A stretch of DNA of 64,000 nucleotides from Norana najaformis. Taxonomy: Eukaryota; Annelida; Clitellata; Crassiclitellata; Hormogastridae. The notes below the pieces were generated by a model. That model did not search any database. It had not been told where the DNA came from and saw only the letters and a list, made by a program, of their open reading frames with translations. The stretch covers positions 14,488,802 through 14,552,801 of the forward strand of contig OZ029928.1 in the NCBI GenBank assembly GCA_964023275.1, given 5' to 3'. A program made the translations under genes and the position numbers. This document shows positions 15,090 to 64,000 of this stretch, piece by piece (within the stretch, counting starts at the first letter, position 1; each line of letters opens with the position of its first letter).

Positions 15090-22442
<7,353 letters not shown>

Positions 22443-24524: not shown

Positions 24525-26723
24525 ATGGCCGATGACAAAGATAACATGCAAGATGATAAATCAGGCTCCGATGTGGAAGATGAAAATGAAGACAAGTCTT
24601 CGGTTGGTGATATGCCCATGGAAGCGGAGTTGCTTGGCAACAAGTTGCTGAGCGATGAAGAAGAAGAAGATGACGGTGAGCACAAAGATGGAATAGATAC
24701 ATTTCAAGGCTATGGTTCGGCTCTTTCGGCTCTTCCGCCAACTGTCATGTCATTTGAGGAAAACCAGTTTGAAGTTTCTTCAAGCCCTGCCTTTCATGAA
24801 CTAGACAAAGTAAGTGCTGCTATTCATTACTTTGAGTGTTAGCCAGTTGTTTTTGCTGCTATTTGAATTTTGTATTTGAATTGCTATGTTCTAGCTCTCT
24901 CTCTAACTCTGGGGAAGGGTCAGCCAAACAGATCCTTTCTCTCCACTTATTTCTGTTTCCAGTGTCCTCCTTCTTTAGTTTGGGTGGTTTGAGGCCCTGT
25001 TGGATCACTTCCCTCCATCTCTTCCTCTGTCTTCCCTGACTGCAGTGTCCATGAATTTCTGCATTCAGAATTCCTTTTGAGGTAGCTGTTGAGTTCAATG
25101 AGTCATTGAACTGAGTTGAGTTGAATTGAAGGCCTCTGCAATGAGATCTTTTGTTTTGTTATGCTTCACCTGATCTTATTATACCTAACCTAACCCACCG
25201 TAGCCTGACTTCTGGTTTCTCTGACCTTTAGGAGTTTGACCCGGCTTCTCCAATGGTTTATGATTTTTGACTGCGTTTTGACTTGAAGCAACCATCGATT
25301 GATACCTTGGGCATTATGATAACGGCACTGTAGAAGTCTTTAGGTTAGATTAGATTAGATACACAGTCTTCTCTGTTTCAAATTTAGCTTATGTTCAGAA
25401 TCTTATAAAATCTAACAAATGCTTGATTTTGTTTACTGTCTAAATAGATCTGAACAAGTAGTTGACTGTGAATTTAAAATCTTAAATATCTGTCAGCTTT
25501 TCAGAGAAGGCCTTCTGACTGGAACACAAGTGGCTCTACTAAAATCCAAATACACAGAACTTCATGACTTAGTGAGGAGGTAAAAAACAGCTTCTTCATT
25601 TTTATATGTAAAAAAATAATTTTTGGAATTGATTTGCCTATCAGTGCTTCCATTTCTTAACAGTTATTGATAAATGTTATCACATTACTTTTGCTTTGTC
25701 TTAATGAATTAAAGAATTTACAGAATTTTTTCTAAATTGCAATGAATTGTAACATTAAAAGTACATTTTAAAAAGATTTAACATTAATAATGAGCTAGTT
25801 AGTTTTGGAGTTGGATGAGTATGTAAACATTACTGGATATAATATTTATGCAGTTGATAATTTCAAGAACCTCTAAAGAATATTGCACCGGAAAGGCTCA
25901 GTGATGCTAGTGTCCAGTTGGTGTCCAGTTGGTGTCCAGTTGGTGTCCAGTTGGTGTCCAGTTGGTGTCCAGTTGATGTCCAGTTGGTGTCCAGTTGATG
26001 TCCAGTTGGTGTCCAGTTGGTGTCCAGTTGATGTCCAGTTGGTGTCCAGTTGATGTCCAGTTGGTGTCCAGTTGATGTCCAGTGGTGTCCAGTTTACTAG
26101 AATGCCCAATCATTAGGGGAGGCTCGAACCCGTACTCTATGCATTACGGGCCAAGCACTCTGTCCAGTCGGCTACCGTGACCTACCCCGGTACATACAAG
26201 CCATGCACTCTAACCAGTCGGCTACCATGCCTCGCAATTACAGACCCAGCTACCACTTAGCTTGTAAACTTGACAGACCAGCATTTTTTCTAGTTCTTTT
26301 TTCTCATTACACCCCAGACCACACTATTAATTCGCCTCCTCCAACTTGAAATCCCGGATTTAGCACTGGCAATTATGTTTTATTTCACTCCATCAGCAAT
26401 CGTGTGAAGGAGCAAGCACTGCTTCAGCAGGCCAAAGACTATACCAATCAGCTGGAAAGGCAGAAATTGGAGCTGGACCAGGCAGAGAATTTTCCCGAGA
26501 ACTGCAACACTGAGGTGTCAAAGCTTCGGCAGCAGCTGCTTCGATGCGGAAACGAACTGAAGCAGACAGAAGAGAGATGTGAACAACTGGCCTATAACAT
26601 CCAGTGGTACACGAGAAACTCATCAGCTTTCCCTCGTATAACAGACCTCTACCAAATGATATAATTTAATTCATTTTGATACTGTTGTACTATATAATAT
26701 ACAGTATTTATGGATATACGTTG

Positions 26724-29700: not shown

Positions 29701-32700
29701 CTACCGTGCTGCACAAAATTGTCCGTGGTGCATCCAACTCTTGGCTTGAGGATGGTTGAAGACAAGACAAGACATACAGTATAAAATATGAAATGTCTAA
29801 AATTTATAAAATATATAAAATAAAAACATGTATGAAATGTTTAACCGTAAAATGCAAATAAATGTGAAATAATTACTCTGATCAGTGAAACAGACAAGAA
29901 GGTGAAGGAAGTCGATGTTGAGATAAAGCAGCTGGAGACGGAGCTTCAGAACCTGCAGTCGCGTCTGACTCTGTTGGAAGACGAGAAGAAGTTTCTCGAT
30001 CGAGATGCAAGGGAGTCTGGATTAATCCATGCGGATCGAGAGAAAAATCTCCAGATTCTGATGAAAGACTACGAATATGCAAAGAATCGAGAGACTGACC
30101 TATTAGTCGATAAGTAAGATATAGGATTTTGTCTACTATCTGAGAAGTAAGAACTTTGATGTAACAGTTGATGAGTAAGATAAAGGATATTAGCTATTAA
30201 TTGGTAAACAAGATGTACTAGTTAATTAGTACAATATTATTATTATTATGAAAACTTTTAACGTGCGCAAAGACAGAAATGCGAATCGGAGGCGCTGATA
30301 GTCAGTCACTAGGTGAAAAGAGTTAGATATCCAGATGTTTGAAAGCCAGTGAGAAATAGTGAGTTTTCAGGCGTTTCTTGAAGGAAGAAAAGGAGTTCGA
30401 GCTTTGAAGAAACATTGGTGGATGGTTCCATTCCTTTGGAGCATGGATTGTATCTGTTAGTTGATAAGTAAGATAGTGTTGTGCAGTGTGCTGCATCTTT
30501 CATAATTACATTATCTTACCTTACCTTATCTTACCTTACCTGCTTACATTACCTTACCTTTCATTACCTTGTCTAGGACGAAGTTGGACTTGAATTTGAA
30601 GCACCTCCAACTGGAGAAGGCCAACGTTCACGAGATCCATTCGAGAAAAGTCCGTGAGAAAGACCATGACCTTCGAGAGTTCAAAAAGGCGGAACTTAAG
30701 CTGAAGATTGCGCAGGATGCTTTCAGCCACTCAAAACAGACTTATGACAAGGTCAAGCAACAGGTCAGTAGGTCAAGCAACAGGTCAATAGGTCAAGCAA
30801 CTGGTCAATAGGTCAAGCAACAGGTCAGTGGAGCAACAACAATGCCTTCTGTCTCCAATCAGCACGTTTAGCTGTTTTAATTTGTTACATTTATTGTTTG
30901 GGTGAAAAATGACAACAATCCTAATCGTAATTCCGAGATTTCTACAGCGTTTAACGAAAGCCACATCACAGGGACCAGCTTATTCACAGTAGCTCAGTCA
31001 AAACAAACTCGATAGGCAAAAAGGTTCGGTTCCAGGTCAAGATCCAAAAGTCAGGCAGAGAGACTTCAGGGTAGCTGCGGTGGGTGGTGTTTGGAATTGG
31101 ATCATTGTTAGCATCCAGATCTACGTGGAAATTTAGTCATGTTGTGCAGATTTCAGATTGATGTTTTAAGGTCGACGCTTCGGCAAAATGAAGCTTCAAG
31201 ACCCCTAAATAAACCTGTGTTAGATGTGGTCAAGTTAGTTTGTAATTTTTAATGAAAGATTGCATTTTCCAACCTACATGTAGCCTGGTTACAGTTCTTC
31301 ATTTTTGAAGGCCTCAGTTCTTTACCATAAGTCATACATATGTAATAGCAGAAATGCATTATCTTTGTTTTAATGCAGAAGCTAACTGGATTAGGTAGCA
31401 TGATTGGTCACCATAGGCATAAGTGGCAGACTGGAAATGCATTGTTGCATTTTTATTCTACTGTATTGTGCTATCTTCTTATGAAAACCTCAAGCCTTGC
31501 CTGAGTGTGGCAACCATGAGAAGCTCTTTCCAGCTCAGCTGTGTAATTTCCTCAACTGCTGCCTAGTTTAGTTTATTAGATTATAAAATTAACAAGAAGT
31601 AAAAAGAAATGAAATGCTGCTTTTGGTCAACAGATGGATAGCTTACCAGATGACGACAGTGAACTGGTGAAGAAGAAAGCTGAGCTGACGAAAGAAGTTG
31701 GTCAGTTGCGCCGTGCTCTTGAAAACCAGGTAGGCAACAAAGTTTAAGTTATTAATTTCTCTTGTAATCGTAATCGTTAGCCTGAGATTTCTACAATGCC
31801 CAACGAGAGAATAATTAAACACTTGCTATTTATCTGTTCCTCTGGTTAAAAAATGTGTTATATGCTGTTTTATTTTCGTCCAGTCTGGATTGACAGCAGT
31901 GGAACAGATTAAAATCGAGCAGAGCGTGGCCGAAGAAGAACGTCTGCTTTATGAACAGAGTGACCTTCGCATCGAAGTTGTTGAACTGACCCGATTGGCA
32001 GCCATAAAGGTAGGTCAACAGAGCCTCATTTTTAATACAAGTCAAGTTTCAAGTCAGCCTTTGATGGTTTTGGAGGTTCTACAGTCAAATGTAAATTAAA
32101 TGTACATGTTTTTCTATAGCAGCCATATAGCCTTGAGCCTGCTCAATTTTTATGAATTTATTCACCACCGCTGTCAAGTGTGAGAATAGTCATGTGATAA
32201 TCATGTGAATTGTCATCACCGTGTTTGTAGGGTAAAGTTGCTGTAGTGATAATGATGTTAGTTATGTGTATGTATGTGAGAGGTTATCCTTTTGTGCTGA
32301 TATATCTTACATCAAAAATCTTTGGCAGCCGCATCACTTTGCCCATGCTTGGCCTTTAGCTAGCCAGTAATTGTCACTAATGGCACAGTGTGGGCCCAGT
32401 GAGCATGGCTGTCTAGGTTCAAAATTAGTTTCATGAATTAATGTATGTTTAATATATTTTAACATAAATGTAACAATTGTTCTAAACGATCTGCACCTTG
32501 TAATGCACTTGTCAGATGCCAAAAAACTACACATTCACTCGCATATTCAACCTTTTCTTATGCTCTGATAGAAGGTTAGGGTCGCTGTTACTCTGTTAGT
32601 TTGGCGGCTTCTTAGTGTTATATATGAAACTCCTGGTCTTTACTTTACAACTGCTATTCTGTATTTCACATATGCTAAACGTAGAGAGATGAAAGCATCC

Positions 32701-35700: not shown

Positions 35701-38700
35701 GGAAAATAAAGAAGGAAACCGAGTCAGAATCAAAACATAAACCAAAAAGACATGCAAAATGCCAGAAAAGTACATGGAAATGTGAAAAACCATTAAAATC
35801 AGAAGAATGAAAAATTAAACAACGTAATAAACAAGTTATAATTAATAGTTATTAATATTATTATGAAACAATACTTGATATTGCTTCCAAAGATAGCATT
35901 ATAATGAGTTTCCAGTGTTTTTTGATTTTGGTGCATAGAAACATAAATAACATTAAAATCAGACGAATAAAAGTCAAACAACGCAATAAACACATAATTA
36001 TGATAATTATAATTATTATTAATGTTATTATGAAATTATACTTGATACAGCTTTCAGAGATAGCATTATGATGAGTTTCCAATGTGCTTTGATTTGATGG
36101 AATGAACCTGAGGCCTAAAACGGCTGAAGAAAGACCTGAATGCATCTTGTGAATGTCACTTGTTTAGATCAGATGGTTAAAGATGGAAATGTTCAGCTTA
36201 GCGGCAAGGAGGAGGAGATACGACTGCGCAAGATTAACCTCATGGAGACGAAGCGACAGGTTGAGCTGCTGAGGAAGAATCTGCGAGACAAGCGTACCAC
36301 AGAACAGGAACTGGTGACCTTACAGATTCAGGTCTGTCATTATACGGAAGAATCCTGATGACAAGAATTTGTTTATAATCTAATCTACTAATGACTTCTG
36401 TATTTGGTTTGATCTTTTGGGTCGCCCAACAACGTATGTGGAACAGCCTTCCAGCATCTGTTCGGGAGTGTCTACGCTTTCAAAATACACCAACAATTGA
36501 CATCATCATCATCATCATCCTCTTCATCGTCATCATATCATTATCATACCATCATCATAGCATTGTATCATAATCATATTATGATCATCAGTCATCATCA
36601 TCATCATATTATAATCATCATAATCATCAGCAATTAATATTGGAAAGCACCCTACAAGTGCCTTGCTACTTAATGATGCTATATCAATTGTCATTTTTAC
36701 GATTACAATTATGAATATAATTACTGTTCTTGCCTAATCTGTTTATGATATTGCACAAATCTGTTCATGTGATCTGGTATTCTAATGTTCCAGCTTGCAC
36801 AGTGTCAGGATCGAATGATGGAACTGGAACAGCAGGTGGAGAATCCGAATGCAAAGAACAGAGCACGACTGATCGAAGGAAAAGATCCAGAACCGCTAGA
36901 ACTTCAGAAAATGATCGAAAAGGTGGGAGGGACAAGCTTTGGCAAAGGAACTGTCTAAACTCTTGAACTGGTGTTGAGTAATAGTTTCAGTTTCTTAACT
37001 TGAAATAAATCATAGAAATAATTTGTTTGAATTTCCCCACTTATGTTGCTTATGCCCACGGCAGCTTCCCCATGGATCTGCCGGTCCTTCTGGCCAGAGA
37101 TGCTGCACTAGAAAAAAGATCACTTTATCGGGGACTCAGCTGGGAGAACCTCTGTGTAGAGTTAGAGAAGGTGCACTATATAAATGCTCTGAGTGAATGA
37201 ACGAATCTTCCATGCTGCTTCCATGCTGTATTGAACTATGTCTACGATCTACTTGACCTACGTGTTCCCCAGTGTTTCTGGGTCGTTGGGCTGGGAGCGC
37301 CTCTGATGAGTATACCTTGAAGTGGCGCTTTATAAATTCTTAATTGCGATTACGATTACAACCACTGTTGGTTGAGGGTCATTCTATATGTCTTGCCTTT
37401 GTTTTTTGGCTTTGCATCTTCCTTTATTTGTTTGCTGTGTTGTGTATTCAATTATGTGTCCATCCATGCCTGCAATTCCTTGCTCAGCTGATGGACATGT
37501 GGCATGTTAACAAATGCATTACTTACTTACTTACTTACTTATTAAGCCGTTTTTCTGACTGCAGCTGGAAGAACGCCTCGCTACGAAGGAGGAACGTTCT
37601 CTGGAGCTTCAGTTTGTCTTCGAACAAATCTGTCGTCTGATTGATCGTGCGGAAGGGGAAGTTAAAGCAGGAAAGACGCACACTCTGACTGTTGCTGAGC
37701 AGGTGACAAAACACTCACTGCTGGCCTGGTTAGCTACTTCAGTATGCGCGTATGCCAAGGAAGCCTCTTTGCATGAGGATCCCCGGTTCGTGTCCCGGTC
37801 GTAGCTTACTTCAGAGATTTGAATCTCAGGCGAACATGATCTGTGCATTGGGACCTTAAATGGCTTGTAGCGATGGTGAAAGATCTCATCCAAAATGGTC
37901 GAGGTCATACAGTCGCTATAGAAAAATATGTACAGTTTACAATGTTTTACTAATATCTTTTCGGATTTACAGCTCTGCTTGTGAATGAGGAAATTGTCGT
38001 CACTTGACATGTCATGTTGTAAGGTTATTAAATAAAATGCCAATACTTTTCAGAGCTTATGATTTTAGAAGCCTTGGTGTTTAAGTTTCGCTATTTCATG
38101 TCATTGCATTTTTAATTATTGTTATTATCTTCATTAACATTTTATCCTCAGCCTCATTATTATAACTATTTTTATAATAATTGTTTTTATTTGCTCCAAG
38201 GTATGTATGCCAATACTTTTCAGATCATGATTAGCATGCTTATGATTTTAGAAGCCTTGGTGAATTTCAAAAGCTATGGCTACAAAGATATTGGCTGAGG
38301 GCATCCAAAAGTATTTTGATTGTTTATAGTTAGCTGTTTGTTTATTAGATATTTATTAGATATTTGTATAGATATTTATTGTTCAGCTGCTAAACCTGCA
38401 GAGGTTATTATTATTATGATTATTATTATTGTTATTATTGTTATTACTATTACTGTTAAGATTAGAACTGAGTAGGGAGTGACTTTTGGATTATGACTTG
38501 GCGCTGAGCTTGGCCCCGCCTGTCTCACCAATTTTCTGTTTGACTGAACACCGGTGTTGTAGCTGGCTTACACGACTTAGCTTTTTGGACGCTGAAGAAA
38601 TGTTCAGTTTGCAATTATTAGTAATTTTAACAGCAAATTGTATATGGTTTATGGTTTCAGGTGAACCAAGTGAATGCTAAACTAAAACATGTGACCCAGA

Positions 38701-41700
38701 AGCAGATGGCTTGTGTTGCGGAGTTGGCCATGCTCCAGGCCGAGTCTTTCCAGCTCCAGCAGCAGGTTCGGACGAAGGAGAATGTGCTGGAACAGTGTCA
38801 CATCCGACTCGAAAAAGGAGAAGCACCAATGGAGGAAATGGAGGCCGAGTGGTTTCAAATGGTGCGTGGTGAACAAAGACGTTTGGCTGACCGAGATTCA
38901 CTGCAAATCGTAAGTATTCCACCTCCTAAAGAACGTCATTCATTGCAAATCATAAGTATTCCACGTCCTAAAGAATGTAATTCATTGCAAATCGTAAGTA
39001 TTCCATGTCCTAAAGAACATCATTCATTGCAAATCATAAGTATTCCACGTCCTAAAGAACGTCATTCATTGCAAATCGTAAGTATTCCACGTCCTAAAGA
39101 ACGTCATTCATTGCAAATCATAAGTATTCCACGTCCTAAAGAATGTAATTCATTGCAAATCGTAAGTATTCCATGTCCTAAAGAACATCATTCATTGCAA
39201 ATCGTAAGTATTCCACGTCCTAAAGAACATCATTCATTGCAAATCATAAGTATTCCACGTCCTAAAGAATGTAATTCATTGCAAATCGTAAGTATTCCAT
39301 GTCCTAAAGAACATCATTCATTGCAAATCATAAGTATTCCACGTCCTAAAGAACGTCATTCATTGCAAATCGTAAGTATTCCACGTCCTAAAGAACGTCA
39401 TTCATTGCAAATCATAAGTATTCCACGTCCTAAAGAATGTAATTCATTGCAAATCGTAAGTATTCCATGTCCTAAAGAACATCATTCATTGCAAATCGTA
39501 AGTATTCCACGTCCTAAAGAACGTCATTCATTGCAAATCGTAAGTATTCCACGTCCTAAAGAATGTAATTCATTGCAAATCGTAAGTATTCCATGTCCTA
39601 AAGAACATCATTCATTGCAAATCGTAAGTATTCCACGTCCTAAAGAACGTCATTCATTGCAAATCGTAAGTATTCCACGTCCTAAAGAACGTCATTCATT
39701 GCAAATCGTAAGTATTCCACGTCCTAAAGAACGTCATTCATTGCAAATCGTAAGTATTCCATGTCCTAAAGAACATCATTCATTGCAAATCGTAAGTATT
39801 CCACGTCCTAAAGAACGTCATTCATTGCAAATCGTAAGTATTCCACGTCCTAAAGAATGTAATTCATTGCAAATCGTAAGTATTCCATGTCCTAAAGAAC
39901 ATCATTCATTGCAAATCATAAGTATTCCACGTCCTAAAGAACGTCATTCATTGCAAATCGTAAGTATTCCACGTCCTAAAGAACGTCATTCATTGCAAAT
40001 CGTAAGTATTCCACGTCCTAAAGAACGTCATTCATTGCAAATCGTAAGTATTCCATGTCCTAAAGAACATCATTCATTGCAAATCGTAAGTATTCCATGT
40101 CGTAAAGAACGTCATTCACTGCAGATTCGTAAGTATTCCATGTCCTAAAGAACGTCATTCATTGCAAATCGTAAGTATTCCACGTCCTAAAGAACGTCAT
40201 TCATTGCAAATCATAAGTATTCCACGTCCTAAAGAACGTCATTCATTGCAAATCATAAGTATTCCACATCCTAAAGAATGTAATTCATTGCAAATCGTAA
40301 GTATTCCATGTCCTAAAGAACATCATTCATTGCAAATCATAAGTATTCCACGTCCTAAAGAACGTCATTCATTGCAAATCGTAAGTATTCCACGTCCTAA
40401 AGAACGTCATTCATTGCAAATCATAAGTATTCCACGTCCTAAAGAATGTAATTCATTGCAAATCGTAAGTATTCCATGTCCTAAAGAACATCATTCATTG
40501 CAAATCGTAAGTATTCCACGTCCTAAAGAACGTCATTCATTGCAAATCGTAAGTATTCCACGTCCTAAAGAATGTAATTCATTGCAAATCGTAAGTATTC
40601 CATGTCCTAAAGAACATCATTCATTGCAAATCATAAGTATTCCACGTCCTAAAGAACGTCATTCATTGCAAATCGTAAGTATTCCACGTCCTAAAGAACG
40701 TCATTCATTGCAAATCGTAAGTATTCCACGTCCTAAAGAACGTCATTCATTGCAAATCGTAAGTATTCCATGTCCTAAAGAACATCATTCATTGCAAATC
40801 GTAAGTATTCCATGTCGTAAAGAACGTCATTCACTGCAGATTCGTAAGTATTCCATGTCCTAAAGAACGTCATTCATTGCAAATCGTAAGTATTCCACGT
40901 CCTAAAGAACGTCATTCATTGCAAATCGTAAGTATTCCATGTCCTAAAGAACGTCATTCATTGCAAATCATAAGTATTCCATGTCCTAAAGAACATCATT
41001 CATTGCAAATCGTAAGTATTCCACGTCCTAAAGAACGTCATTCATTGCAAATCGTAAGTATTCCATGTCCTAAAGAACGTCATTCATTGCAAATCGTAAG
41101 TATTCCATGTCCTAAAGAACGTCATTCACTGCAGATTCGTAAGTATTCCATGTCCTAAAGAACATCATTCATTGCAAATCGTAAGTATTCCACGTCCTAA
41201 AGAACGTCATTCATTGCAAATCATAAGTATTCCACGTCCTAAAGAACGTCATTCATTGCAAATCGTAAGTATTCCATGTCCTAAAGAACATCATTCATTG
41301 CAAATCATAAGTATTCCACATCCTAAAGAATGTAATTCATTGCAAATCGTAAGTATTCCATGTCCTAAAGAACATCATTCATTGCAAATCGTAAGTATTC
41401 CATGTCGTAAAGAACGTCATTCACTGCAGATTCGTAAGTATTCCATGTCCTAAAGAATGTCATTCATTGCAAATCGTAAGTATTCCATGTCCTAAAGAAC
41501 ATCATTCATTGCAAATCGTAAGTATTCCACGTCCTAAAGAACGTCATTCATTGCAAATCGTAAGTATTCCATGTCCTAAAGAACATCATTCATTGCAAAT
41601 CGTAAGTATTCCACGTCCTAAAGAATGTCATTCATTGCAAATCGTAAGTATTCCACGTCCTAAAGAACGTCATTCATTGCAAATCGTAAGTATTCCATGT

Positions 41701-42418
41701 CCTAAAGAACAAATCATAAGTATTCCACGTCCTAAAGAATGTAATTCATTGCAAATCGTAAGTATTCCATGTCCTAAAGAACATCATTCATTGCAAATCG
41801 TAAGTATTCCACGTCCTAAAGAACGTCATTCATTGCAAATCGTAAGTATTCCACGTCCTAAAGAACGTCATTCCATTAAAGAATGTAATTCATTGCAAAT
41901 CGTAAGTATTCCATGTCCTAAAGAACATCATTCATTGCAAATCGTAAGTATTCCACGTCCTAAAGAACGTCATTCATTGCAAATCGTAAATATAACACCT
42001 TCTAAAGAACGTCATTCATTGCAAATCGTAAGTATTCCACCTCCTACAGAACGTCATGCAAGCTTGCAGTGATGAATGAGTAAAGTGAACAATCAGTCCA
42101 GATGAAATTTAACTGTAATAGAAAGAACTAGGTTAAAACTAATGATAAAAGTTCAAAAGCTGTCTTTTTTGGATAGCATTTTCAGAGTGGTATTTTCCAA
42201 TGGTATGTTTATAGATGACTGAGCAGGAAGCCGTGTTCAGTCTGCCTGACGGATCAATCACCACAGCCGAGCCTCGCCCCAATGCCTACATACCAGACGA
42301 GGAGCACGAACTGCCAATACCTCGACCCTATGGCAAACACGCACCATTCAGACCATCGGAGCCTGGATCGACTATGCGACACATTCGTAAACCGATACCA
42401 AAGCCAATCGAGATTTAG
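24525..42418 (+). CDS. CCDC146: CCDC146 (MBO2 homologue), ciliary/centriolar coiled-coil protein
   Basis: Nineteen exons join in phase: 24525-24809, 25497-25579, 26397-26606, 27357-27414, 28029-28205, 29069-29142, 29886-30113, 30577-30763, 31634-31729, 31884-32009, 32685-32818, 33491-33655, 34277-34501, 35255-35319, 36168-36331, 36794-36922, 37565-37702, 38661-38909 and 42215-42418, giving 998 residues (human about 955). The N-terminus is acidic (DEEEEDDGE), the body is continuous coiled coil with [23 protein letters not shown] and IEGKDPEP, and the C-terminus carries [12 protein letters not shown] and [17 protein letters not shown], which identify the family. Chlamydomonas MBO2 affects flagellar beating, and mammalian CCDC146 is needed for sperm flagella and sits at centrioles and microtubules. 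The start follows a likely acceptor at 24511. The donor of exon 3 (tg^gtacac) is the weakest junction. Exon 18 ends exactly where the 42-bp array begins. Confidence 0.93.
24629..24641. promoter_or_regulatory. X-box-like palindrome inside CCDC146 exon 1
   Basis: GTTGCT-T-GGCAAC fits the RFX pattern GTYNCY, spacer, RGNRAC with both half-sites intact. It lies about 105 bases after the start codon and encodes residues within ELLGNKL, so it may be chance or a dual coding/regulatory site. Confidence 0.35.
24859..25098 (-). mobile_element. Relic of a non-LTR retrotransposon reverse transcriptase C-terminus (CCDC146 intron 1)
   Basis: An open minus-strand stretch encodes [16 protein letters not shown] and later NRNKWRERI, the pattern found near the C-terminus of many LINE reverse transcriptases (GRPRKRW ... 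DRxxWR). Only about 80 codons survive and no catalytic domain is present, so it is a dead fragment. Confidence 0.5.
25195..25370 (-). repeat. SINE-like family F copy with (ATTAG)n tail (CCDC146 intron 1)
   Basis: The copy shows ggcttctccaatggtttatg, tgacttgaagcaaccatcg, attgataccttgggcatt and gataacggcactgtagaag before ttagattagattagat. Confidence 0.65.
25905..26095 (+). repeat. 12-bp minisatellite (gtgtccagttgg), CCDC146 intron 2
   Basis: About 15 copies of a 12-bp unit occur, alternating between ttggtgtccag and ttgatgtccag variants. Minus-strand open frames over it are repeat artefacts. Confidence 0.9.
26105..26240 (-). repeat. SINE family A, 3' part duplicated (CCDC146 intron 2)
   Basis: The block ggggaggctcgaacccgtac, gcattacgggccaagcactc, tgtccagtcggctaccgtg is followed by a second partial tacaagccatgcactctaac, cagtcggctaccatgcc. 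The reverse complement has A-box tagccgactgg and B-box gggttcgagcc. Confidence 0.7.
26759..26794. repeat. Perfect 16-bp inverted repeat with 4-base loop
   Basis: ATTACATGTTATGATA, loop TATT, then its exact reverse complement. It follows a (TA)n tract in CCDC146 intron 3 and would form a stable cruciform or RNA hairpin. Confidence 0.8.
27575..27720 (+). repeat. SINE family B, 5'-truncated copy (CCDC146 intron 4)
   Basis: The blocks gtgaaggatctcacccgatc, gagcagggtcaaggccat and ctatataaaaccgtatacat followed by a ttacattta tail match family B. Confidence 0.65.
29195..29385 (+). repeat. Tandem AT-rich repeat of roughly 70 bp (CCDC146 intron 6)
   Basis: Three diverged copies of a unit containing taattgattacataattac, ataattaatcatgagcatc and atctatcat lie in tandem. 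Confidence 0.65.
29530..29715 (-). repeat. SINE family A, near full-length copy (CCDC146 intron 6)
   Basis: This is the clearest copy. On the minus strand it begins gcacggtagcctactggaaa, continues with gagtgctcggcttgtaac and has a gggttcgaaactcc B box, which is a tRNA-like RNA polymerase III promoter. The body then runs to the ctgcatttatatggcgccac end. Confidence 0.75.
30751..30830 (+). repeat. 4 x 20-bp tandem repeat spanning the exon 8 splice donor of CCDC146
   Basis: Four in-phase units start ggtcaagcaac and end ggtcartr. The exon end and donor caacag^gtcagt fall inside unit 1 (exon ends 30763). Units 2 and 3 carry gtcaat, and unit 4 repeats gtcagt exactly. Using a later donor would shift frame or meet an in-frame TAG at 30809-30811. 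Confidence 0.85.
30920..31120 (+). repeat. SINE-like family E copy (CCDC146 intron 8)
   Basis: The ordered blocks are taatcgtaattccgagattt, aacgaaagccacatcacagg, gaccagcttattcacag, gtcaaaacaaactcgatagg, ggttccaggtcaagatcc and gtcaggcagagagac. Confidence 0.7.
32105..32185 (-). repeat. SINE family B, fragment (CCDC146 intron 10)
   Basis: The reverse complement of ttctatagcagccatatagc, cttgagcctgctcaattttt and atgaatttattcaccaccgc corresponds to the 3' half of family B. Confidence 0.55.
33000..33105 (+). repeat. 53-bp direct duplication (CCDC146 intron 11)
   Basis: Two nearly identical consecutive copies of a segment containing acatgcttcgttaagaaac, gaatcctgatataacccagt and ttgggtc are present. 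Confidence 0.75.
33225..33420 (-). repeat. SINE-like family E copy (CCDC146 intron 11)
   Basis: In reverse orientation it shows catcacccactgtagctgcc, tttttgcctatcgatttgg, aagctggtccctgtaacgtg and tcttgagattatgattac. Confidence 0.7.
34637..34800 (+). repeat. Long polypurine (AAG/AGG) tract, CCDC146 intron 13
   Basis: About 160 bases are almost pure purine on the transcribed-sense strand, built of aag, gag and agg triplets. Lys/Arg-rich and Ser/Leu-rich open frames over it are artefacts of the triplet repeat. Confidence 0.85.
37265..37365 (+). repeat. SINE-like family C copy (CCDC146 intron 16)
   Basis: The blocks ttgggctgggagcgcctctg, gagtataccttgaagtggcg, ctttataaattcttaattgc and gattacgattaca define the family. 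Confidence 0.6.
37730..37935 (+). repeat. SINE family B, near full-length copy (CCDC146 intron 17)
   Basis: The copy runs from gtatgcgcgtatgccaagga and tgcatgaggatccccggttc (a possible B box ggttcgtgtcc) through ccttaaatggcttgtag and gatctcatccaaa to gtcatacagtcgctatag. The order matches 49430-49645. Confidence 0.7.
38035..38265 (+). repeat. Duplicated 45-55-bp segment (CCDC146 intron 17)
   Basis: The string atgccaatacttttcaga and then cttatgattttagaagcctt occurs at about 38038 and again at about 38209, about 170 bases apart, with a small insertion in the second copy. Confidence 0.65.
38910..42060 (+). repeat. 42-bp tandem array (about 75 units) built on the exon 18 splice donor of CCDC146
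   Basis: The unit is of the form gtaagtattccacgtcctaa, agaacgtcattcattgcaaatc. The first gtaagt is the real donor of exon 18 (exon ends 38909, ...ctgcaaatc). By my count there are 75 units: 58 retain GTAAGT, 16 have ATAAGT, and one has GTAAAT. In the exon's frame a unit encodes the 14 residues [14 protein letters not shown] (variants PC..EHH, PR..ECN). Four units contain one extra base (gcagattcgtaag, near 40124, 40839, 41134 and 41429), each breaking the frame and meeting a stop. Spacings between these are 715, 295 and 295 bases, that is 17, 7 and 7 units plus one. Two partial units occur near 41710 and 41873. The last unit degenerates to ctacagaacgtcatgcaagc. Confidence 0.97.
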
Positions 42419-51306: not shown

Positions 51307-51667
51307 GTGTTGTTGCTGGCCCCTCTGGCGATCAACGCCATTTGTGGTGGAGGTGGTACAACGTACTATGAAACAAAAACTCGTTGTCTGTTGTAGAAAA
51401 TTTTACCGTAAGTAAATCGTTTTCTATATTATTTTCTCGATAAAATTGTTCATTTGTGTTTCAGGATCAAATATTATGACAAATATTTGGTAAATTTATC
51501 GAAATTGGGTTTTTAAATTGAATTATTTGAAAGCTGACCTAAGCTATGCGACAGTGGAGGTCGGTAGTGATATACTGTTGTTTACGGCCCACTTTGTCTT
51601 TGTTCACAGATCGTCCAGGTGTCAGCGTTACTAGTTCACAAGATTCGGTCCCAAACTGCTGTTGACG

Positions 51668-52156
51668 ATGTTCAGCGAGGTGAACAGTGTCGTACACTTT
51701 GTTTCGAAGCTTTTAAGCCAGCGAAAGGTTTCGTCTGAAACTGTCGAATCCTTCAGAGAGGCGTTGCGGGGAATGCTTTGTACCCACTACGAAGACCACT
51801 GGTTCCCCGACAAGCCGTTTAAAGGAAGTGCCTATCGCTGCCTTCGCATTGTTGGAATGCAGGTCGACCCGTTGTTCACTCGAGCGGGAGACGAGGTAGG
51901 ACTTTCGAAGAACCAGCTGGTGGAGTTGTTGCCAAGAGAACTGACCATCTGGGTTGACCCCGAGGATGTATCTTACCGCATCGGGGAGGAGGGCAGCATC
52001 GGGGTTCTGTTCGACGGTACAAACAACTTCGTTACCCTCGAGCAGGAAAACTCGCGTCCACCGAAAATCAAGTCTTGTAAGGAGCAACTGATCCACTGCA
52101 TGCAGACGCCCTCGTCCCACTCAAACGCCGAAGCAATAACGGCCGTGGCCAGTTAG
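51668..52156 (+). CDS. BTG1: BTG1/BTG2-type antiproliferative protein
   Basis: One uninterrupted exon encodes 162 residues from ATG at 51668 (MFSEVNSVV), close to BTG1 (171) and BTG2 (158). Box A (YEDHWFPDKPFKGSAYRCLR) and Box B (LPRELTIWVDPEDVSYRIGE) are intact, so the CNOT7/CNOT8 deadenylase-binding APRO domain should fold. SCKEQL near the C-terminus corresponds to the SCKEEL motif after the domain in BTG1/2. These proteins recruit the CCR4-NOT complex to shorten poly(A) tails and restrain proliferation. Tob-type C-terminal extensions are absent. Vertebrate BTG1/2 coding regions have one intron and this one has none. The immediately preceding acceptor-like sequence suggests a spliced 5' UTR. 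I cannot choose between the BTG1 and BTG2 names. Confidence 0.92.
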   Translation: MFSEVNSVVHFVSKLLSQRKVSSETVESFREALRGMLCTHYEDHWFPDKPFKGSAYRCLRIVGMQVDPLFTRAGDEVGLSKNQLVELLPRELTIWVDPEDVSYRIGEEGSIGVLFDGTNNFVTLEQENSRPPKIKSCKEQLIHCMQTPSSHSNAEAITAVAS

Positions 52157-55100: not shown

Positions 55101-56179
55101 CAAAACTAATAAAAATGTCTAATGAAGCAAGTGATTGTATTGTTTTTACACGTGACCAAAATTTGTTAAATTTGGCATTCAAAAACCTACCAGTATTTGC
55201 CACCACTGACAACAAACGCTACTATATGCCATCCTATACATATGTTTAATCCAAACAATGAGATCTTACATCAATTGTCACAACCACTTGGACATAACAC
55301 CTACAAAATTTAGAGAATATTACTGTTTAGCAGAAGGCTGGCTAAGTAATTTAAAAAACAGTCTCAATCCTATAACCGTTAATCATGTTTAATTAAGAGA
55401 AGTACATGTGGTTGTCATTACTGCCTAGATATGCACGTTTCAATCGGCTGCACGTAACTAGCAGCTGCTAGTTCAGAAGTTGCTTGCAATATTGGTGGTT
55501 ATCTTCGCCCATGAATAGGCCACATATCTGATTTTCTTCTGAACAGTCACAAACATGGCAATACCAGTTACAGACATGGTATTACCAGTCACAGACATGG
55601 CAATACCAGGCACAGATATGGCAATACGAGCCTTAGACATGGCAATACGAGCCTTAGACATGGGAATACTAGTCACAGATACGGCAATACCAGTCACAGA
55701 CATGGCAATACTAGTCACAGACATGGCAATACCAGTCAGACATGACAATACTAGTCACAGACATGGCAATACCAGTCACAGACATGGCAATACCAGTCAC
55801 AGACATGGCAATACTAGTCACAGACATGGCAATACCAGTCACAGACATGGCAATACCAGTCAGACATGACAATACTAGTCACAGACATGGCAATACCAGT
55901 CACAGACATGGCAATACTAGTCACAGACATGGCAATACCAGTCACAGACATGGCAATACCAGTCAGACATGACAATACTAGTCACAGACATGGCAATACT
56001 AGTCACAGACATGGCAATACTAGTCACAGACATGGCAATACCAGTGCTCTGGAATACGTTTCATTCCCATAATCATTCAAAGGGGCATTGCACATGCTGC
56101 AAAATGGTGCAACTGTCAAATAATACTCTTATTTCAACCTGAAGCTGTTAAATCAATCTGTCATGCCTAGAATTCGTCA
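52157..56179. other. Convergent spacer: BTG 3' UTR and ITIH downstream region
   Basis: AT-rich sequence follows the BTG gene without recognised coding frames. An AU-rich-element nonamer TTATTTATT occurs at 53760-53768, which could destabilise the BTG mRNA if the 3' UTR reaches that far. The 21-bp minisatellite at 55551-56045 lies just past the ITIH stop codon. Confidence 0.4.
55551..56045. repeat. 21-bp minisatellite (acatggcaataccagtcacag) downstream of ITIH
   Basis: About 23 copies alternate between ataccagtc and atactagtc. A shortened unit (gtcagacatgac, two bases missing) recurs at about 55735, 55859 and 55962, showing block duplication. Repetitive MAIPVTD-type frames are artefacts of the 21-base period. 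Confidence 0.9.
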
Positions 56180-59100
56180 TCACTGCTGCGAGTTGCTGCT
56201 AGTTTTATGGTTTCTGTTGACAAACGATGATTTCCTGTAGTGCAGATAGGGCACAATGTAGTCCTCAGGGTTTCCTTTGATCAGCCCAGCACCGTTGTGT
56301 GGTACATGCCAGCATGGTGTCTGTGTCTTAAGGTCCATGTCGCGCCGGTCTGCAAGCGCCGCACCCACAGTTCTGTGTGACATGTGTGGCCCCAAAAACG
56401 TCAGTCGTGCTTGTAGCCTGACGTTGCTGAAGCTGGTACGAAGTTCCAAAGATGAACGAATTACTGAAGCTGCCTGGTGTGTGAACTGACCTGTTGAAGC
56501 AACGGATGAAAGTTTAAGCAACGACAATAGCACCACAAGATGCAATCAAAACTGACAAGGTAAAGAGGTGCAATATCCAGAAAGCTGCCACACGCCATAA
56601 AACTTTTCGTTTCATAAAATAGCAACTAGCATCACTTTAGCATCATTCAGCATATCAACACCATTACCATCATGGATCCTGACTGCATGGCTCTGTCCAA
56701 TGGATTGTGATTTTGGGATGCAATTTTGTCCAGAAGCAACCATCGACTGATGCCTTGTGCATTACGATAACGGCACCATAGAAGTTTCTGGATTATATTA
56801 GATTTTGAGAGGTTCCTAACAGGTGCTGTAAAAATTTTCTGATACAACTTAGGTTCTAATTAATTTGCTTTTAGCATGGCATAGGCCCATACATCACTTG
56901 GCATAAATCTCAAGCTAGGCCTATTTCACTCGTAATAATACACCAATATCTTCTTATAAGTCGCTACCTTAAAATGCAGAATTGGATGTAACACTATTGT
57001 GGACATGTATCTCCATTTAGCTCAGCTTAGAAAATAATGACAATACCACCTCTGCCTGTTATTTGTCTAGGCACGTATTCAGTGCCACTAAAATCACCAT
57101 AGCACGTATTCAGTGCCACTAAAATCACCATTTTCACATTCATCACAACAAGAAGAAGAAGAGATAACGTGCCAGACTACAAATTTGAATCACACGGTGT
57201 ACCCCACTTCTATTCGTTGTCTTCAAAATTTCACAGAATGGCATCACTCAACGTGGTCCGTGGTCCTTACCTATGAGGCCGTGAATGTGTTCTGAAAGGC
57301 CAGATTCATCTTCAACGTAGAATCCTAAGTAGCTGACTTTGTAAGGATGTGATGGCTTAACCATGTGTCGCAGAATTCGCAACACAGCAACGTTTTTCAC
57401 GGTCACCGTGATGTGTCTGCTCGACGTTATTTCAACTGATACGTATTCGGAAACATTAAATGTTGCATTCTTTTTCCAGTCGTGCAGTGCGCTGTTCAAA
57501 AGGACGTTTTCAGGATCAACCACAACTGATGTTCGGTCATACAGGATGGCAATTTTTCCCAGGTAAGTTTTTACGCTGGGAAATTCATTGGTGATGCCTT
57601 TCCCAGTGACGAGGGCATTAACTGCAAGTCCTGGAACAGAGAAAAATGAAATATCTATGAAATGAAAGTGTACTGTAATCGAAGATTTACAAGCATCCGA
57701 TAAGAACTAGCCAGAAATTTGTTTCATATTGCAAGAAGTGTTTACTATAAGCGGTCGTATGCTGGGGTCTCACAAGCACTTTCTGAAGCACTTGATGTTT
57801 CAATTTACGAGTCAGTGACATGTTGTTTTAATTGTCCATTCGGTTATCTGATCAAAACCAATTTCTAATCAAATGACTGCGAGCTTGAACACCATGTTTT
57901 TGAAGTCAAAGTTCTCTAAATTAATCTAGTTTTTTTCCACAAGGCCACTTCAAAAGTCCTGAACAGAACGCTCCCAGGCTATGAGACTAGAGTTCACAAC
58001 TTAAGAAAAGCTACTGCCCTCGATATGCAGTTATGCTGAAACGATAACAAGTCTCTTCACAGAAACAAATACTCGGAAGACTGACAAGGAGGACCTGTTG
58101 GAAAGTTACCAGCAATAAGTTTATCACGCCTTCAGCAAATTTGCTGAATATCTGTTTATAAGCAACTCAGTCTGTGTAAACAAGCAACACAATGATTTAT
58201 ACAGACTTTGCATTTATGTACTGCATAAATTTTAAGTAGTCGAGTGCAAGTTTCAGGTTAGGTTTCAATCATGTTACTGCGATGGATTGGTCACATACTG
58301 TGTGGAAATGCTCTCCTAAGGACAGTGATTGAAGGAAGGATTAAAGGAAAGACAGTTCCAGGAAGACCAAGAAATATGCTGGTGGACTGGATGATGGATA
58401 AAGAAGGAAGACGGGGCTACAAAGAAGTTAAACAAAGGGCACAGAACAGAGAAGAGTGATGTCATTGGACTCTTGGACCTGCCTAACGGCAGAACACTGA
58501 AGAAGAACTGCGATGAATAGTTAGTGGGCTGGATTTCTCTGACAGGTCTCAGGCACGTCAGGGTTGGACACAAGGCTATCACATACCCTGAATACTGTAA
58601 CAAGCTTCCAAAGGACATCAACACCACGGAGAACATCGGTACAGCTCTGACTAACCGATGGACCCAGCCAGCCACATTCACTGGGCCAATGGTTGGCCCA
58701 TATTGGCAGCAAATGGTGGCCAGCTGTGGGCTCAATGCCGACCAAATCTGTATCCGTTCGTTACATTCAAGAGTGTGCATGAATTTTGTATCAAACCAAA
58801 TTTTACTTGTAAGTTTTACATTATAATAATATTCAAGCAAGCGAACAACTAAAGTTTGCTCACAAATTCCCTTATTAGCTCTGCATGCATCGATATGACT
58901 GTTTACAATCACGCGTGATCCATGAAGTGTGTGCATGCATTACGTCATCTGTGAGACTGGATTTTCCCAGCAGTGTTGGTTTTAAGTGCTTCATAAGTGA
59001 CTTCCTGGACATTTCAACAGCTCTTAAATTTAAACGCGACGTGCCGTAAATAAAAATTATTTCAAAAGTTTCTAGATGAAATATACGATGCACGACATGC

Positions 59101-62100
59101 CTAGACAACACAGAAAAGAACAATTGAAAAAAGATGATTTAGTGCAATTTATTTATGGCAGTTATCTCCTAGAACAATTTCTTAAGAAATGGTTGGAGAG
59201 ATGTAATCGTAATCGTATGTACCAGTTTCTTTATCGTGTATCAGCTGATAAATGATCCCTGGTTGGCCGTCAACGTCGAAGCAGACTCCCTCTTTCAAGC
59301 CATCGACCATGACGAGAAAATGTGGATCGTTGTCAACTGAAGTGCACAGACAAAAATTCCATGACCAACTAGTCGACTGATTGTGCAAATGCTGTAAACA
59401 TTTAAATCTAAATCTCCAAAATTTAACAGTGACACACCAAAGACCTGCTTATTAACCGCAGCTACGTCAAATCAAGTCCACAACAGCTAGGTTGTTTGGT
59501 CAGAATCCAGGGATCATGCCAGACAACATGGTGCTATGGTGGAAATCGTTGGTAATGGTAATCGTAATCATAATCCCGAGATTACAGCGCCCAACGAAAG
59601 CCACGTCATGGGGACCAGCTTATTCACAGGCGCTCAGTCAAAACAAAATCGATAGGCAAAAGTGTTTGGTTCCAGGTCAAGATCCAAGAGTCAGGCAGAG
59701 AGACAGTGTGGGAGCTACTGTGGGTGATGTTTGGGAATTGGAGCGGAAAGATGGATAACAGGAAGAAGGGGAGTCAGGATAGGATCTGTGAAAGAGGAAT
59801 GTTTTCAGTTTTGAGTGGAAAGCCAATGCAGAAATTGCAAGCAGTGGAGAATAGGTGAGTTTGTATGATGGGTCAGATAACTGTCACAGTTCCGGGGAGG
59901 AGTTTATGGCAGGTATTGTAGGGTGCAGGAGCAGAAGCAGGATAAGACAGCTTAAAAATTTCATTAAGTTTAGTAAGGTTCAGGTAAGGTAAAGTTAGGT
60001 AGAGCTAGGTAAGGTAATGCTACATGTCTTTATCAACACTTGTAATAATTTACGTAAGCTAAGGTAAGGCAAGGTAAAAAGGTACAGTAAGGTAAGGTAA
60101 CCTATGGCTACCTGTCTCCAACAGAAGCAGAAGTTCTCTGGGGCTTGAGAGATCTTCGGGTTAAGAGTCACACAACGACTATGATCCAAGAATCGGATAT
60201 TGCCAACAACACAGCAACCTTTCCTTAGCAGTTACACGTCGTGACAATAAATTATCAACGTCACCATCGAGTTGATGTCTTTGAGCTATGCTAGCTGCTG
60301 AGAGTCTTAGAACTCACCAAAGGCTCGATGCCGGTTGGCATGGTTACCCAATTTCCTGCGGTCATGTCGCTCCTTTTTTAACAGCAGGTCCCTAGACTTG
60401 CTGTCTGCAGAAGCTGATTCTGAAACATCTTCACAAACATAACACACAGTTTAAGCGGCTATCAGATTTCTAGCTATTTGTTCACTGACGATTTTAATTC
60501 ACTTTCAGTACTGGATAGGTATAAAATATTATTATTATTTGTCAAAAACTGAAGAAATGATTAACAATTCCAAACATCACCCACTGTAGCTGCCACGCTG
60601 TCTCTCTGCTTGAATCTTGGATCTTGACCTGGAACCGAACACTTTTGCCTATCGATTTTGTTTTGACTGAGCGCCTGCGAATAAGGTGATCCCAGTGACA
60701 TGGCCTTCATTGGACGCTGTAGAAATCTTGAGATTATGATTACGATCAAGTAACAATCACAGAGAAGTGATCTTTACAATTTTCAAAGCAAACTTAGATA
60801 ATAAATAATCCAACAGAAAACAGTTGGCAAAATCCTAAACTGGAACTTTCGGACAGCACATGACTTCACAGTAAGCTATGCCATATTCCATAAGAAATTA
60901 ATATTTAACACAAATATCCCTACTTAATGCATGTATGTACACATATATGTACATATGGCACGTCAACAAATGCATTACTTACTTACTTACATTGGAACCT
61001 TGTTCCAAAAGCCGAATGAAACCTGGGTTCATATTCCTGACCACATCGTATCAGAATCCTCATTATAATAATGCAGCTCTTTGGAGGTTCTGGTGTATAT
61101 ACTGGGAAATGAAGGCTCTAAAGGAAATTGGATTACTTAATCTCTAGATCTGTGACTGCATCCCTTGAGAACACTCATACGCACCGTGTAATCTGAGAAA
61201 ATTGATCCGTAGTTTTTCTGGAGCTCTGCGGGTGGTAAGGCCAGTGCAAACTCATCAAGTGCACTTAATTAACACAGTACCCAGTGACACTGCCACTTGT
61301 TTCTTAGCTAAGATAACGTAAGTACTTAGTCGCTTCTTGTGCGATCCATTGTTGTGGGTTACAATGCTTTTGGTGAATAAAGGTTAATGCATCTATTACA
61401 TGTCTCGTTCAACAGTTCTCAGCGGCATAACATATGTCTTAAGATTAGATTAGATTAGATTACAGGCTTCATTCTGTGGCCAGAGGACAGTTTGGCTCAA
61501 ATGGAAAAACAATAGTTAACAAAACTATTGGCTTTTTCTTAAGAGTTCGTAAGCATTTCTTAATGGTTCTACTGCGTTTCCTAAGAGATCCAATGGTTAA
61601 TGGTTCCACTGCATTTCTTAAGAGTTCCACTGCACTTCTTAAAAGTTCCACTGCATTTCTTAATAGTTCCATTGCAATGCTTAACGGTTCCATTACATTT
61701 TTAATGGTTCCAGTGCATTTCTTAAGGGTAACATTGCATTTCTTAAGAGTTCCATTGCATCTCTTAATAGTTTCATTCCAATGCTTAACGGTTCCATTGC
61801 ATTTATTAATGGTTCCAGTGCATTTCTTAAGGGTTCCATTGCGTTCTTAAGAGTTCCATTGCATTTCTTAATAGTTTCATTGCAATGCTTAACGGTTCCG
61901 CATTTATTAACGGTTCCACTGCTCTAAAGATAACTTTGAAAAGTCTTACTTTCCCTACATGGATTTGAAACAACAATCCAAAGCTTTACCACTCAGCCAC
62001 CCAATCAAGAACAACAGCTGAGTTTCTGTGGGCACTGGCATCCCAGCCAAAGAAGAAAAGAAAGGCAAGTCAAAGGCACAGCACACATTAAATACTAAGA

Positions 62101-63866
62101 TATCTTTCGCCAAAAAGCCAAAACTCTTGATGTTTTTAGCCGCAGAGTAATTCTGATGTTGGAAGAAACCTGCTTTATCAGTCTGACCTGATTCTTCGGG
62201 CAGGTCTTCGTCAGGATCTGCCAGACATATCGGTCCCTTCAGCTCCTTCAGCTTACTCATGTCCATGCACATCAGTGGTGTCATTATGGAATGCTTCAAG
62301 ACAAAACAAGATAACAAAATACTAGTACGTTCCGTGCACGGGGACCTTAAATGGCATGGCGCCCATTTAAACGAAAAGCGGTGGTGAAGGATCTCACCCG
62401 ATAAATTCACTGCAAAATGAGCAGGGTCGAGGCCATACGGTCGCTATATAAAAACCTATACATTTATTTATTTATACTTCACACATTTATTTATTCATTT
62501 AAAGCACTTCTTTGCAGGAACAGTCAGGAAATCTGAATCTGAGGTGCGTATGAATTTTCTATAAGGGCCAAGATGGAGTCAAGCAACAATCAAAGTAAAA
62601 TAGTGGGTCTTGACAAATGATTTAAAAGATGTTAGCAAGTTTGCAAATGGACATCTAACGCTGAATGACCTGAGTTCCAGTTTAGGACTTGCATGTTCAT
62701 AATAACTTTCTCCAAGCGACAGTTCTTCCCGTCATGAATAATAAAGGCCAAAGTGGCTTTAGAAAGAAAAGCCATGTAGTACCAGTATTAATATCTGAAC
62801 TCTGGAAGGGACTCTGTTGGCTGGGTTCTACGTGCCTGTGAAAGTCCATCAGCGGCGACTTTTCCGAGAATTATTTGCTTATAGATTTCTTACTGTTCTT
62901 AATGAACTTTAACACCAATTAGGCTAGCACAGGCAGAACTTCTGTGAGGTACTTAAAAGGTGCTATATTACCGGTGTCTGCACACATACATAAGTACATA
63001 AAAGTACACACATACATACTTGGTACATACATAATTTTACACACTACTTAGGCTAGCATAGGCCCCACATACATAAATAAATGCATAAAAAACATATATG
63101 CATACATACGTACTATGCATCAGCTGCAAAAACAAAATCTAAGCCAGAACCAAAGTTTAGTTAATAAGTTAGAATCTAACCTGAAGTGACATCCTTCGGA
63201 CAGAAGCGACAGCCGTCGTTATGACAGTTTCGTTTATATATTCCAGCGTCTTCCGTAGTAATTTTCGGATTGTTGAATGAATCCAAGCTTTTTCGGCAAA
63301 ATTGAACCCCGCCGCTTTGTCACGCTCAGACTTTGGAATCTTAGGTCGAGTATCCAGTGACATGTATCCCTGCGTGCTGCCACCAGATACTTTGGCAGTC
63401 AGGTAACCTGTCCTCGTCTTCAAATGCCCCACAACGACAAGCTCAGAACCTGCAAAATACGCCGGGAAATCGGTTTCCGAGAGGGAAGTATCTTCTACCA
63501 CGTCGTCATATCTTACTCGGACGTTCTCTAGGAGTGGCGTCGACATCTCTGAGTAGAACAGCCTCATCTCCTCCGCGGCATGCACGGCCCGCTGTATTCG
63601 CCTTGCAAATCCACGGTTCTGCTGCGCCAGCTTTCGAAGGAACGCAAACCGCACTTCGTTGCCGAGTGCGACTGCAAAGATGGACACGCGGGCGCCATTC
63701 GCCTGCCTCACGTTCGACAGAATACGGTCGTAGTCTGTGACGCCCGTCATCGGGTTGCCGTCAGTGAGTAAGATGATCATCGATATTCGGGTGGCGAGGG
63801 GCTCTAGCTCTTCCTGTTTAACAAGGAAGTCGATCCCACGCAACAGAGCATCGTTCATGTTGGAAC
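56180..63866 (-). CDS. ITIH: Inter-alpha-trypsin inhibitor heavy chain, C-terminal two-thirds (partial; runs off right edge)
   Basis: Six exons join in phase: 63181-63866, 62188-62293, 60318-60419, 59223-59336, 57271-57630 and 56180-56490, about 560 residues. The first carries the second half of a von Willebrand A domain (MIILLTDGNPMTG, FAVALGNEVRFAFLRKL) and the helical linker. The next holds SIMTPL, which corresponds to FVTPLTS of human chains. Exon 59223-59336 has DPHF, the heavy-chain cleavage and chondroitin-sulphate linkage motif. The last two form the ITI_HC_C domain (YLGFYVEDESGLSEHIHGLI, PCWHVPHNGAGLIKG, EDYIVPYL). ITIH proteins are secreted; heavy chains are transferred to hyaluronan and stabilise extracellular matrix. 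The signal peptide, VIT domain and MIDAS motif lie beyond the right edge. The C-terminus extends about 20 polar residues past the usual end. Which ITIH paralogue is unclear. Confidence 0.93.
56670..56805 (-). repeat. SINE-like family F copy (ITIH intron 5)
   Basis: The blocks catggatcctgactgcatgg, ctctgtccaatggattgtga, ccagaagcaaccatcgactg and gataacggcaccatagaag precede a ttatattagatt tail. Confidence 0.6.
58262..58510 (+). mobile_element. Relic of a non-LTR retrotransposon reverse transcriptase C-terminus (ITIH intron 4)
   Basis: The frame encodes RWIGHIL, LLRTVIEGRIKGK, GRPRNMLVDWMMDKEGRRGY and QRAQNREE, a pattern I know from the C-termini of LINE-type reverse transcriptases. The next codon is TGA where such proteins have Trp, then CHW follows in frame, so the copy is dead. 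Confidence 0.6.
59555..59750 (+). repeat. SINE-like family E, well-preserved copy (ITIH intron 3)
   Basis: The blocks ggtaatcgtaatcataatcc, cgagattacagcgcccaacg, aaagccacgtcatggggacc, tcaaaacaaaatcgatagg, gtttggttccaggtcaagat and gtcaggcagagagacagtg give the fullest view of the family. Confidence 0.7.
59975..60105 (+). repeat. (AGGTA)n-like microsatellite
   Basis: Units aggta, aggtaa and aggtaaag are repeated with interruptions, like the tract at 1408-1575. Confidence 0.7.
60565..60755 (-). repeat. SINE-like family E copy (ITIH intron 2)
   Basis: The reverse-orientation order is caaacatcacccactgtagc, cttggatcttgacctggaac, ttgcctatcgattttgtttt and gtagaaatcttgagattatg. It lies about 810 bases from an opposite-oriented copy at 59555. 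Confidence 0.7.
61555..61925 (+). repeat. Diverged 21-24-bp tandem repeat (ITIH intron 2)
   Basis: Units of the form ttccactgcatttcttaaga or ttccattgcaatgcttaacg follow each other about 15 times with length variation. Confidence 0.75.
62320..62475 (+). repeat. SINE family B, 5'-truncated copy (ITIH intron 1 of this window)
   Basis: The blocks gtgcacggggaccttaaatg, gtggtgaaggatctcacccg, ataaattcactgcaaaatga and agcagggtcgaggccatacg end with ggtcgctatataaaaaccta and a (TTTA)n tail. It sits about 30 bases upstream, in transcript sense, of the acceptor of exon 62188-62293. Confidence 0.7.
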
Positions 63867-64000
63867 CTAAAACAATATCAGCAATAGAACAAATACTGCA
63901 CTATAACAGATAAGCAGATTGTCCTTTTACGAGTAAAATTAATAAATTATCTAAGAAATGATTATCTAGTCGTAAGAAATATTGGTTAAATACTACTAGC
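63867..64000. other. ITIH intron sequence at the right edge
   Basis: AT-rich sequence lies upstream (in transcript sense) of the acceptor at 63867, with nothing recognisable. The preceding ITIH exon is outside the window. Confidence 0.6.

Follow-up and report, generated by a model that had tools for sequence, protein, structure and literature searches.

Tandem repeats that span exon-intron boundaries have been described in lancelets as "mirages", and in the available text of two papers they are reported for Adh3, for the globins BflGb6 and BflGb9, for PGBD5 and, as cited there, for troponin C (PMC3087553, PMC3902484). Six and three repeat units were found in two haplotypes of BflGb6, the globin repeats forming homogenised clusters from which the boundaries are excluded, and RT-PCR suggested normal splicing even though many repeats hold splice signals (PMC3087553, accessible portion). 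Repeats of the mirage kind are also described in the PGBD5 paper, which refers to Adh and troponin C (PMC3902484). In human segmental duplications, exon-intron boundaries can carry variable internal tandem repeats, with on average 30-bp units and 4 copies (PMC2812944). Introns have further been reported to arise when sequence that contains AGGT is duplicated in tandem, and a repeated 24-bp segment is described for genes of fission yeasts (PMC4974935).

The stretch of DNA analysed here, a window of 64 kb that contains no N, carries such a repeat at exon 18 of a CCDC146 gene. With a probability of roughly three in four, it is best read as a mirage-type, donor-spanning and mostly neutral minisatellite in a lophotrochozoan, perhaps an annelid, of which the first donor would normally be used. 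The repeat unit spans the exon-intron boundary (12 nt of exon and 30 nt of intron), the splice signal GTAAGT recurs in 58 of 75 units, and the interior is homogenised with the edges excluded, CACCT being found in units 1, 74 and 75 only. As these three structural features of mirages are all present, the array is termed mirage-type by its anatomy. It is not termed an amphioxus mirage, because that name has been used in cephalochordates and the window belongs to the lophotrochozoans, although host group is not a structural feature. The initial annotation had called this a very unusual intron start. A lack of any near parallel does not hold, since the lancelet mirages, to go by the text available, already span exon-intron boundaries (PMC3087553, PMC3902484).

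Like the amphioxus mirages, as far as the accessible text describes them, the CCDC146 array consists of boundary-spanning tandem repeats with splice signals in many units and with edge units left out of homogenisation. It differs from them in its host, which is lophotrochozoan by the tree, in its 75 copies against the 3 and 6 of the BflGb6 haplotypes, and in its 42-nt unit, which keeps the frame for 29 copies; normal splicing is reported for the lancelets and is made likely for CCDC146 by the homolog spacing. The human boundary repeats are likewise minisatellites that alter exon/intron structure, but in the part of the paper available they are said to form novel introns, whereas the CCDC146 array lengthens an existing one (PMC2812944). 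Duplication of AGGT, in the portion accessible, also gives extra splice sites through tandem copies; in CCDC146, by contrast, no new intron arises and the common unit provides a donor and no AGGT (PMC4974935). In the literature on amphioxus and on boundary repeats generally, as covered here with few subscription papers, no other case with dozens of donor copies was found.

The gene was recognised by homology. A hand-joined protein matched CCDC146 across many animal groups (162 proteins found, the best 120 of the 162 listed), and the best match among those listed was the CCDC146-like protein of Tubulanus polymorphus, with 56% identity over 94% of the query (E 2.9e-257). A tblastn search with CCDC146 homologs (two shown) gave 19 homology blocks between 24.7 and 42.4 kb, of which block 18 begins at about 38658 and block 19 reaches 42415. 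Both the identity of the gene and the numbers 18 and 19 of its last exons, as first annotated, agree with these results. In mammals, CCDC146 is described as a centriole and microtubule-associated protein in the available text of PMC10942651. The exon list used here is the homology-based one from tblastn, a second gene model having barred array donors after the first. Several features of early gene models, namely donor 24675 and exons at 29500, 29700, 30993 and 32231, are not supported by homology and were dropped. Exons 18 and 19 together gave no match among solved structures, and Rfam gave none at gathering score for the 64-kb window.

Exon 18 (38661..38909, + strand) ends in ...RDSLQI in phase 0, and the exon part of the repeat occurs there for the first time, as a diverged copy in the last 12-14 nt. 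Exon 19 (42215..42418, + strand), the last coding exon, ends in ...KPIPKPIEI before the stop and is 78% identical to Tubulanus over 65 residues. With the first GTAAGT donor (38910..38915, + strand) used and 38909 joined to 42215, the anchor-to-anchor distance is 50 residues. The same distance could be measured in 118 of the 120 listed homologs and was 50 in 112 of them, 51 in three and 49, 46 and 12 in one each; the homolog with 12 appeared by eye to be a pattern artefact. Since the spacing is that of 112 of the 118 measurable homologs, the first donor would make the protein of the family, and the phase-0 join and the acceptor at 42215 proposed earlier are borne out by it. The same donor, 38909, was chosen by our own exon search program when array donors were allowed and exon length was limited to 600 nt. 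Three repeat peptide motifs were found in none of the 120 listed homologs, in line with the earlier claim that exons 18 and 19 match the vertebrate C-terminus without array sequence. Exon 18 alignments that ran into the array at low identity were regarded as alignment artefacts, because exon 19 aligns separately.

A tree of CCDC146 was built from the window and 42 of the 120 listed homologs. B. belcheri fell outside a group of 23 lophotrochozoan rows (100/99) that contained the window. Within this group, the window adjoined two unnamed sequences (100/99) and, with weak support (84/89), was close to Capitella. It has a long branch of its own (0.88), and 57% is the best identity. The sequence is regarded, with reserve, as annelid-like. 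An affinity to amphioxus, raised by the mirage papers, was rejected on the identities (50% for B. belcheri against 56% for Tubulanus) and on the tree.

By TRF, unit splitting and comparison of exon with unit, the minisatellite extends over 38898..42057 (+ strand). Splitting on [GAC]TAA[AG]TAT gave 75 unit starts in the assembly, a single haplotype, between 38910 and 42028, which upholds the earlier figure of about 75 copies. The recount of units opening in GTAAGT likewise returned 58, with 16 in ATAAGT and one in GTAAAT; there are consequently 59 GT-bearing donors, mostly in 42-nt steps and all before a single acceptor. The array lies where the initial annotation put it, with the small correction that the repeat does not start exactly at GTAAGT and begins 12-14 nt upstream, inside exon 18. 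Unit length is 42 nt in 68 cases, 43 nt in four, 30 nt in one and 60 nt in one, and the last unit is partial. TRF reported the 42-bp array at 38896-41873 (71.1 copies, 92% matches, score 5108), and overlapping rows carry it on to 42057. There are 18 distinct unit sequences when the last unit is cut at 42 nt, and 40 of the 75 units represent just two of them. The 43-bp units, three identical copies and one variant, lie at 40086..40128 (the first, a +1 unit that breaks the frame) and at 40801-40843, 41096-41138 and 41391-41433, all on the + strand. Each holds one acceptor-like CTGCAG, at 40119, 40834, 41129 and 41424, with GTAAGT four bases downstream and, by eye, few pyrimidines upstream. The last, partial unit runs into unique intron, and the segment 42028..42214 (+ strand) is the putative remnant of an ancestral intron of 187 nt.

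The last 14 nt of exon 18 match the common unit at 13 of 14 positions, and farther into the exon the agreement falls to 4/7 and then 0/6. At the other end, the last unit (42028) matches at 28 of 30 positions and then at 2 of 12, before unique sequence follows. Because the breakpoints of similarity fall there, the unit can be resolved into 12 nt of exon 18 end and 30 nt of intron start (12+30=42), with AT shared at the join. Unit composition and breakpoints agree with the origin suggested in the initial annotation, amplification across the junction of exon 18 and intron 18, and on the same grounds a mutational path can be proposed. Slippage between ATTCACTGCAA in the exon and a similar CATGCAA, located about 30 nt inside a short intron, would have duplicated a segment made of these 12 and 30 nt. 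Growth to 75 copies may then have proceeded by slippage or unequal exchange, in part with several units copied as a block, and would have lengthened intron 18 from about 187 to 3305 nt. Two exact internal matches, one 477 nt long at lag 715 and one 364 nt long at lag 1009, show that internal blocks were copied; the identity of unit types peaks at lags of 31, 7, 24 and 17 units (0.39, 0.38, 0.33 and 0.28). The 72 units other than 1, 74 and 75 have CACGT, CATGT or CACAT, and confinement of CACCT to edge units is expected if the ends of an array escape homogenisation.

In vitro, model pre-mRNAs with duplicated donors often splice from the donor that is closer to the acceptor, and if such a donor were used here, stop-bearing products would result. 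The array donor has a U1 pairing energy of -7.6 kcal/mol. Ten other donors of the gene were scored and, without the unsupported 24675, five were stronger and four weaker than the array donor. GTAAGT pairs alike with U1 after ATC and after TTC, the latter found in 43-bp units; ATAAGT, which lacks GT, gave -4.4 and GTAAAT -1.9. The array donor is of intermediate strength, and ATC rather than AG stands before its GTAAGT, so that site strength does not explain why the first donor should be preferred. In its accessible text, PMC8283771 stresses the exon-end G and the +5 G of donors, of which the array donor lacks the first and has the second. The literature on donor competition consulted, including the available parts of PMC8724738 and PMC8283771, contained nothing that settles the choice among many identical donors. 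The first donor is nevertheless likely to be used, judging from homology, the needs of the protein and the lancelet reports. Exon 18 with its own splicing signals would direct splicing to this donor and the array would leave with the intron, so that the gene could tolerate it.

A different reading would give the donors a function as a working ladder, with 0 to 392 residues inserted in steps of 14 between coiled coil and conserved C-terminal tail and with donors past unit 29 producing stop-bearing transcripts for decay, and hence a tunable dosage. We regard this as unlikely, even though the unit length of 42 is 3 x 14 and the common unit is stop-free in the exon 18 frame, giving 14 residues. 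The lengths of the odd-sized units (30 and 60 nt) are likewise divisible by 3, and the two contexts in which GTAAGT occurs (ATC, TTC) pair equally with U1. The array stays open in this frame, a feature overlooked in the initial annotation, over 29 units (38910..40148, + strand), until unit 29, the first of 43 bp, shifts it into a stop at 40146-40148. When each of the 59 GT donors was joined to exon 19, the C-terminus stayed intact for 22, all in units 1-29 and with between 0 and 392 residues added, and for none of the other 37, so that a protein-compatible ladder of donors is real as an option. Against its being used, the +1 unit occurs at four places, and the codon positions of the varying columns give no sign of purifying selection on the array peptide. 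Six columns vary in more than one copy among the 42-nt units, all at codon positions 1 and 2, all residue-changing and in a pattern of CpG decay; two further changes, found in the 43-nt units, would be silent in frame. The repeat motifs are moreover absent from the 120 listed homologs, and when the array peptide was used as query, none of 7997 scored candidates reached E 0.01 or better, in a database apparently without this species. It is improbable that a graded CCDC146 series exists in which the 22 compatible donors place spacers of 0-392 residues before the conserved tail, later donors lead to decay and array length acts as a heritable or somatic dial. The graded isoforms envisaged at the outset, which would be in frame for 22 GT donors and broken for 37, are possible but found no support. 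That the mature message retains the whole array as coding sequence extending exon 18, that is, as a protein repeat, is extremely unlikely: the frame is open for 29 of the 75 units but breaks at 40086-40148, before exon 19, so that the C-terminal tail conserved in homologs would be lost, and protein-level constraint shows no sign. A coding tandem repeat, in which the frame would be kept throughout, was therefore rejected on the break in unit 29 and on variation without constraint.

The variation between units consists mostly of residue-changing CpG transitions. At three CpG positions, 83 changed cells were read as such transitions, a number of copies and not of independent events. On the same count of copies, the change affects 16 of 75 units at the donor, where GT was lost, unnoticed in the initial annotation, by an apparent CpG-to-CpA change to give ATAAGT, 32 of 72 at the second position, as the three edge units never had that CpG, and 35 of 75 at the third, where one change sits in the 30-nt unit and may have been made by its deletion. 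CpG decay would thus account for most differences between units. For CpG, the observed/expected ratio reaches 1.55 in the array, against 0.64 elsewhere in the window and 0.44 in the introns of CCDC146 (as listed, three small exons being unmasked), and TpG+CpA is in excess in the window (1.26); these figures fit a presumably methylated genome and a young array. A selected role at the RNA level, by buffering of donor mutations or holding of U1 snRNP, could draw on the GTAAGT of 58 units and on the donor CpG, which is intact more often (59/75) than the others (40/72 and 40/75), although units copied in blocks are not independent. Yet 16 units are without GT, and the dozens of donors are already explained by the copying of one founding unit, which makes such a role very unlikely; for buffering and U1 tethering, as put forward in the initial annotation, no clear evidence emerged. 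It is also highly improbable that the copy number, as distinct from the existence of the array, is an assembly artefact. The identical blocks of 364-477 nt are stretches that short reads misassemble, but the 18 distinct unit sequences stand in irregular order and diverged units lie at both edges. A largely neutral minisatellite removed with intron 18 after use of the first donor is the reading we prefer.

A second donor-spanning array, absent from the initial annotation, was found in the same gene by TRF, sequence inspection and a frame test. Exon 8 (30577..30763, + strand), placed by tblastn and homolog alignment, ends in ...KVKQQ and is followed by about 4 copies of a 20-bp unit (30750..30827, + strand), the exon end and array reading ...GACAAGGTCAAGCAACAG|GTCAGTAGGTCAAGCAACAGGTCAATAGG... 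with donors after 30763, 30783, 30803 and 30823. The protein continues from the first of these only; splicing from the second or third would shift the frame and run into stops, and from the fourth a stop is reached before exon 9. A second array with a single protein-compatible donor, the first, speaks for the preferred reading of the array at exon 18. The exon 8-9 join was gap-free within 10 residues in 99 of 117 spanning homologs, with a gap in 18. A TTACC-type tandem repeat (30505-30574) forms the pyrimidine stretch of the exon 8 acceptor and ends just before the AG at 30575-30576, so that exon 8 has a repeat at both splice sites. Arrays thus repeat two of the 18 donors of CCDC146. An overlap of at least two arises by chance in 35.7% of circular shifts and in 22% of random placements, for 14 arrays hand-picked from the TRF list and 18 donor positions of which some are approximate; as this is not above random placement, no special tendency of arrays to lie at donors is claimed.

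Other minisatellites in the window lie at 18657-18875 (15 bp), 25910-26094 (11 bp), 55544-56045 (21 bp) and 61535-61922 (21/42 bp), and no exon boundary was evident by eye at these four. A BTG-family domain was found at 51635-52153 on the + strand (E 1.8e-38). Two domains on the - strand perhaps belong to one gene (57251-63897), namely a C-terminal domain of inter-alpha-trypsin inhibitor heavy chain at 57251-57706 (E 3.8e-21) and, at 63169-63897, a VWA domain (E 9.5e-09).

Most work on the competition of identical 5' splice sites for the spliceosome has used designed minigenes. CCDC146, with 59 GT donors before one acceptor, may offer a natural test of the choice among such sites, and the question it poses is whether position next to the true exon overrides site identity. 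Exon 8 would serve as an internal control, since all its donors but the first break the protein, whereas 22 choices at exon 18 keep it. The array at exon 18 further suggests that minisatellites across exon-intron boundaries are not confined to lancelets.
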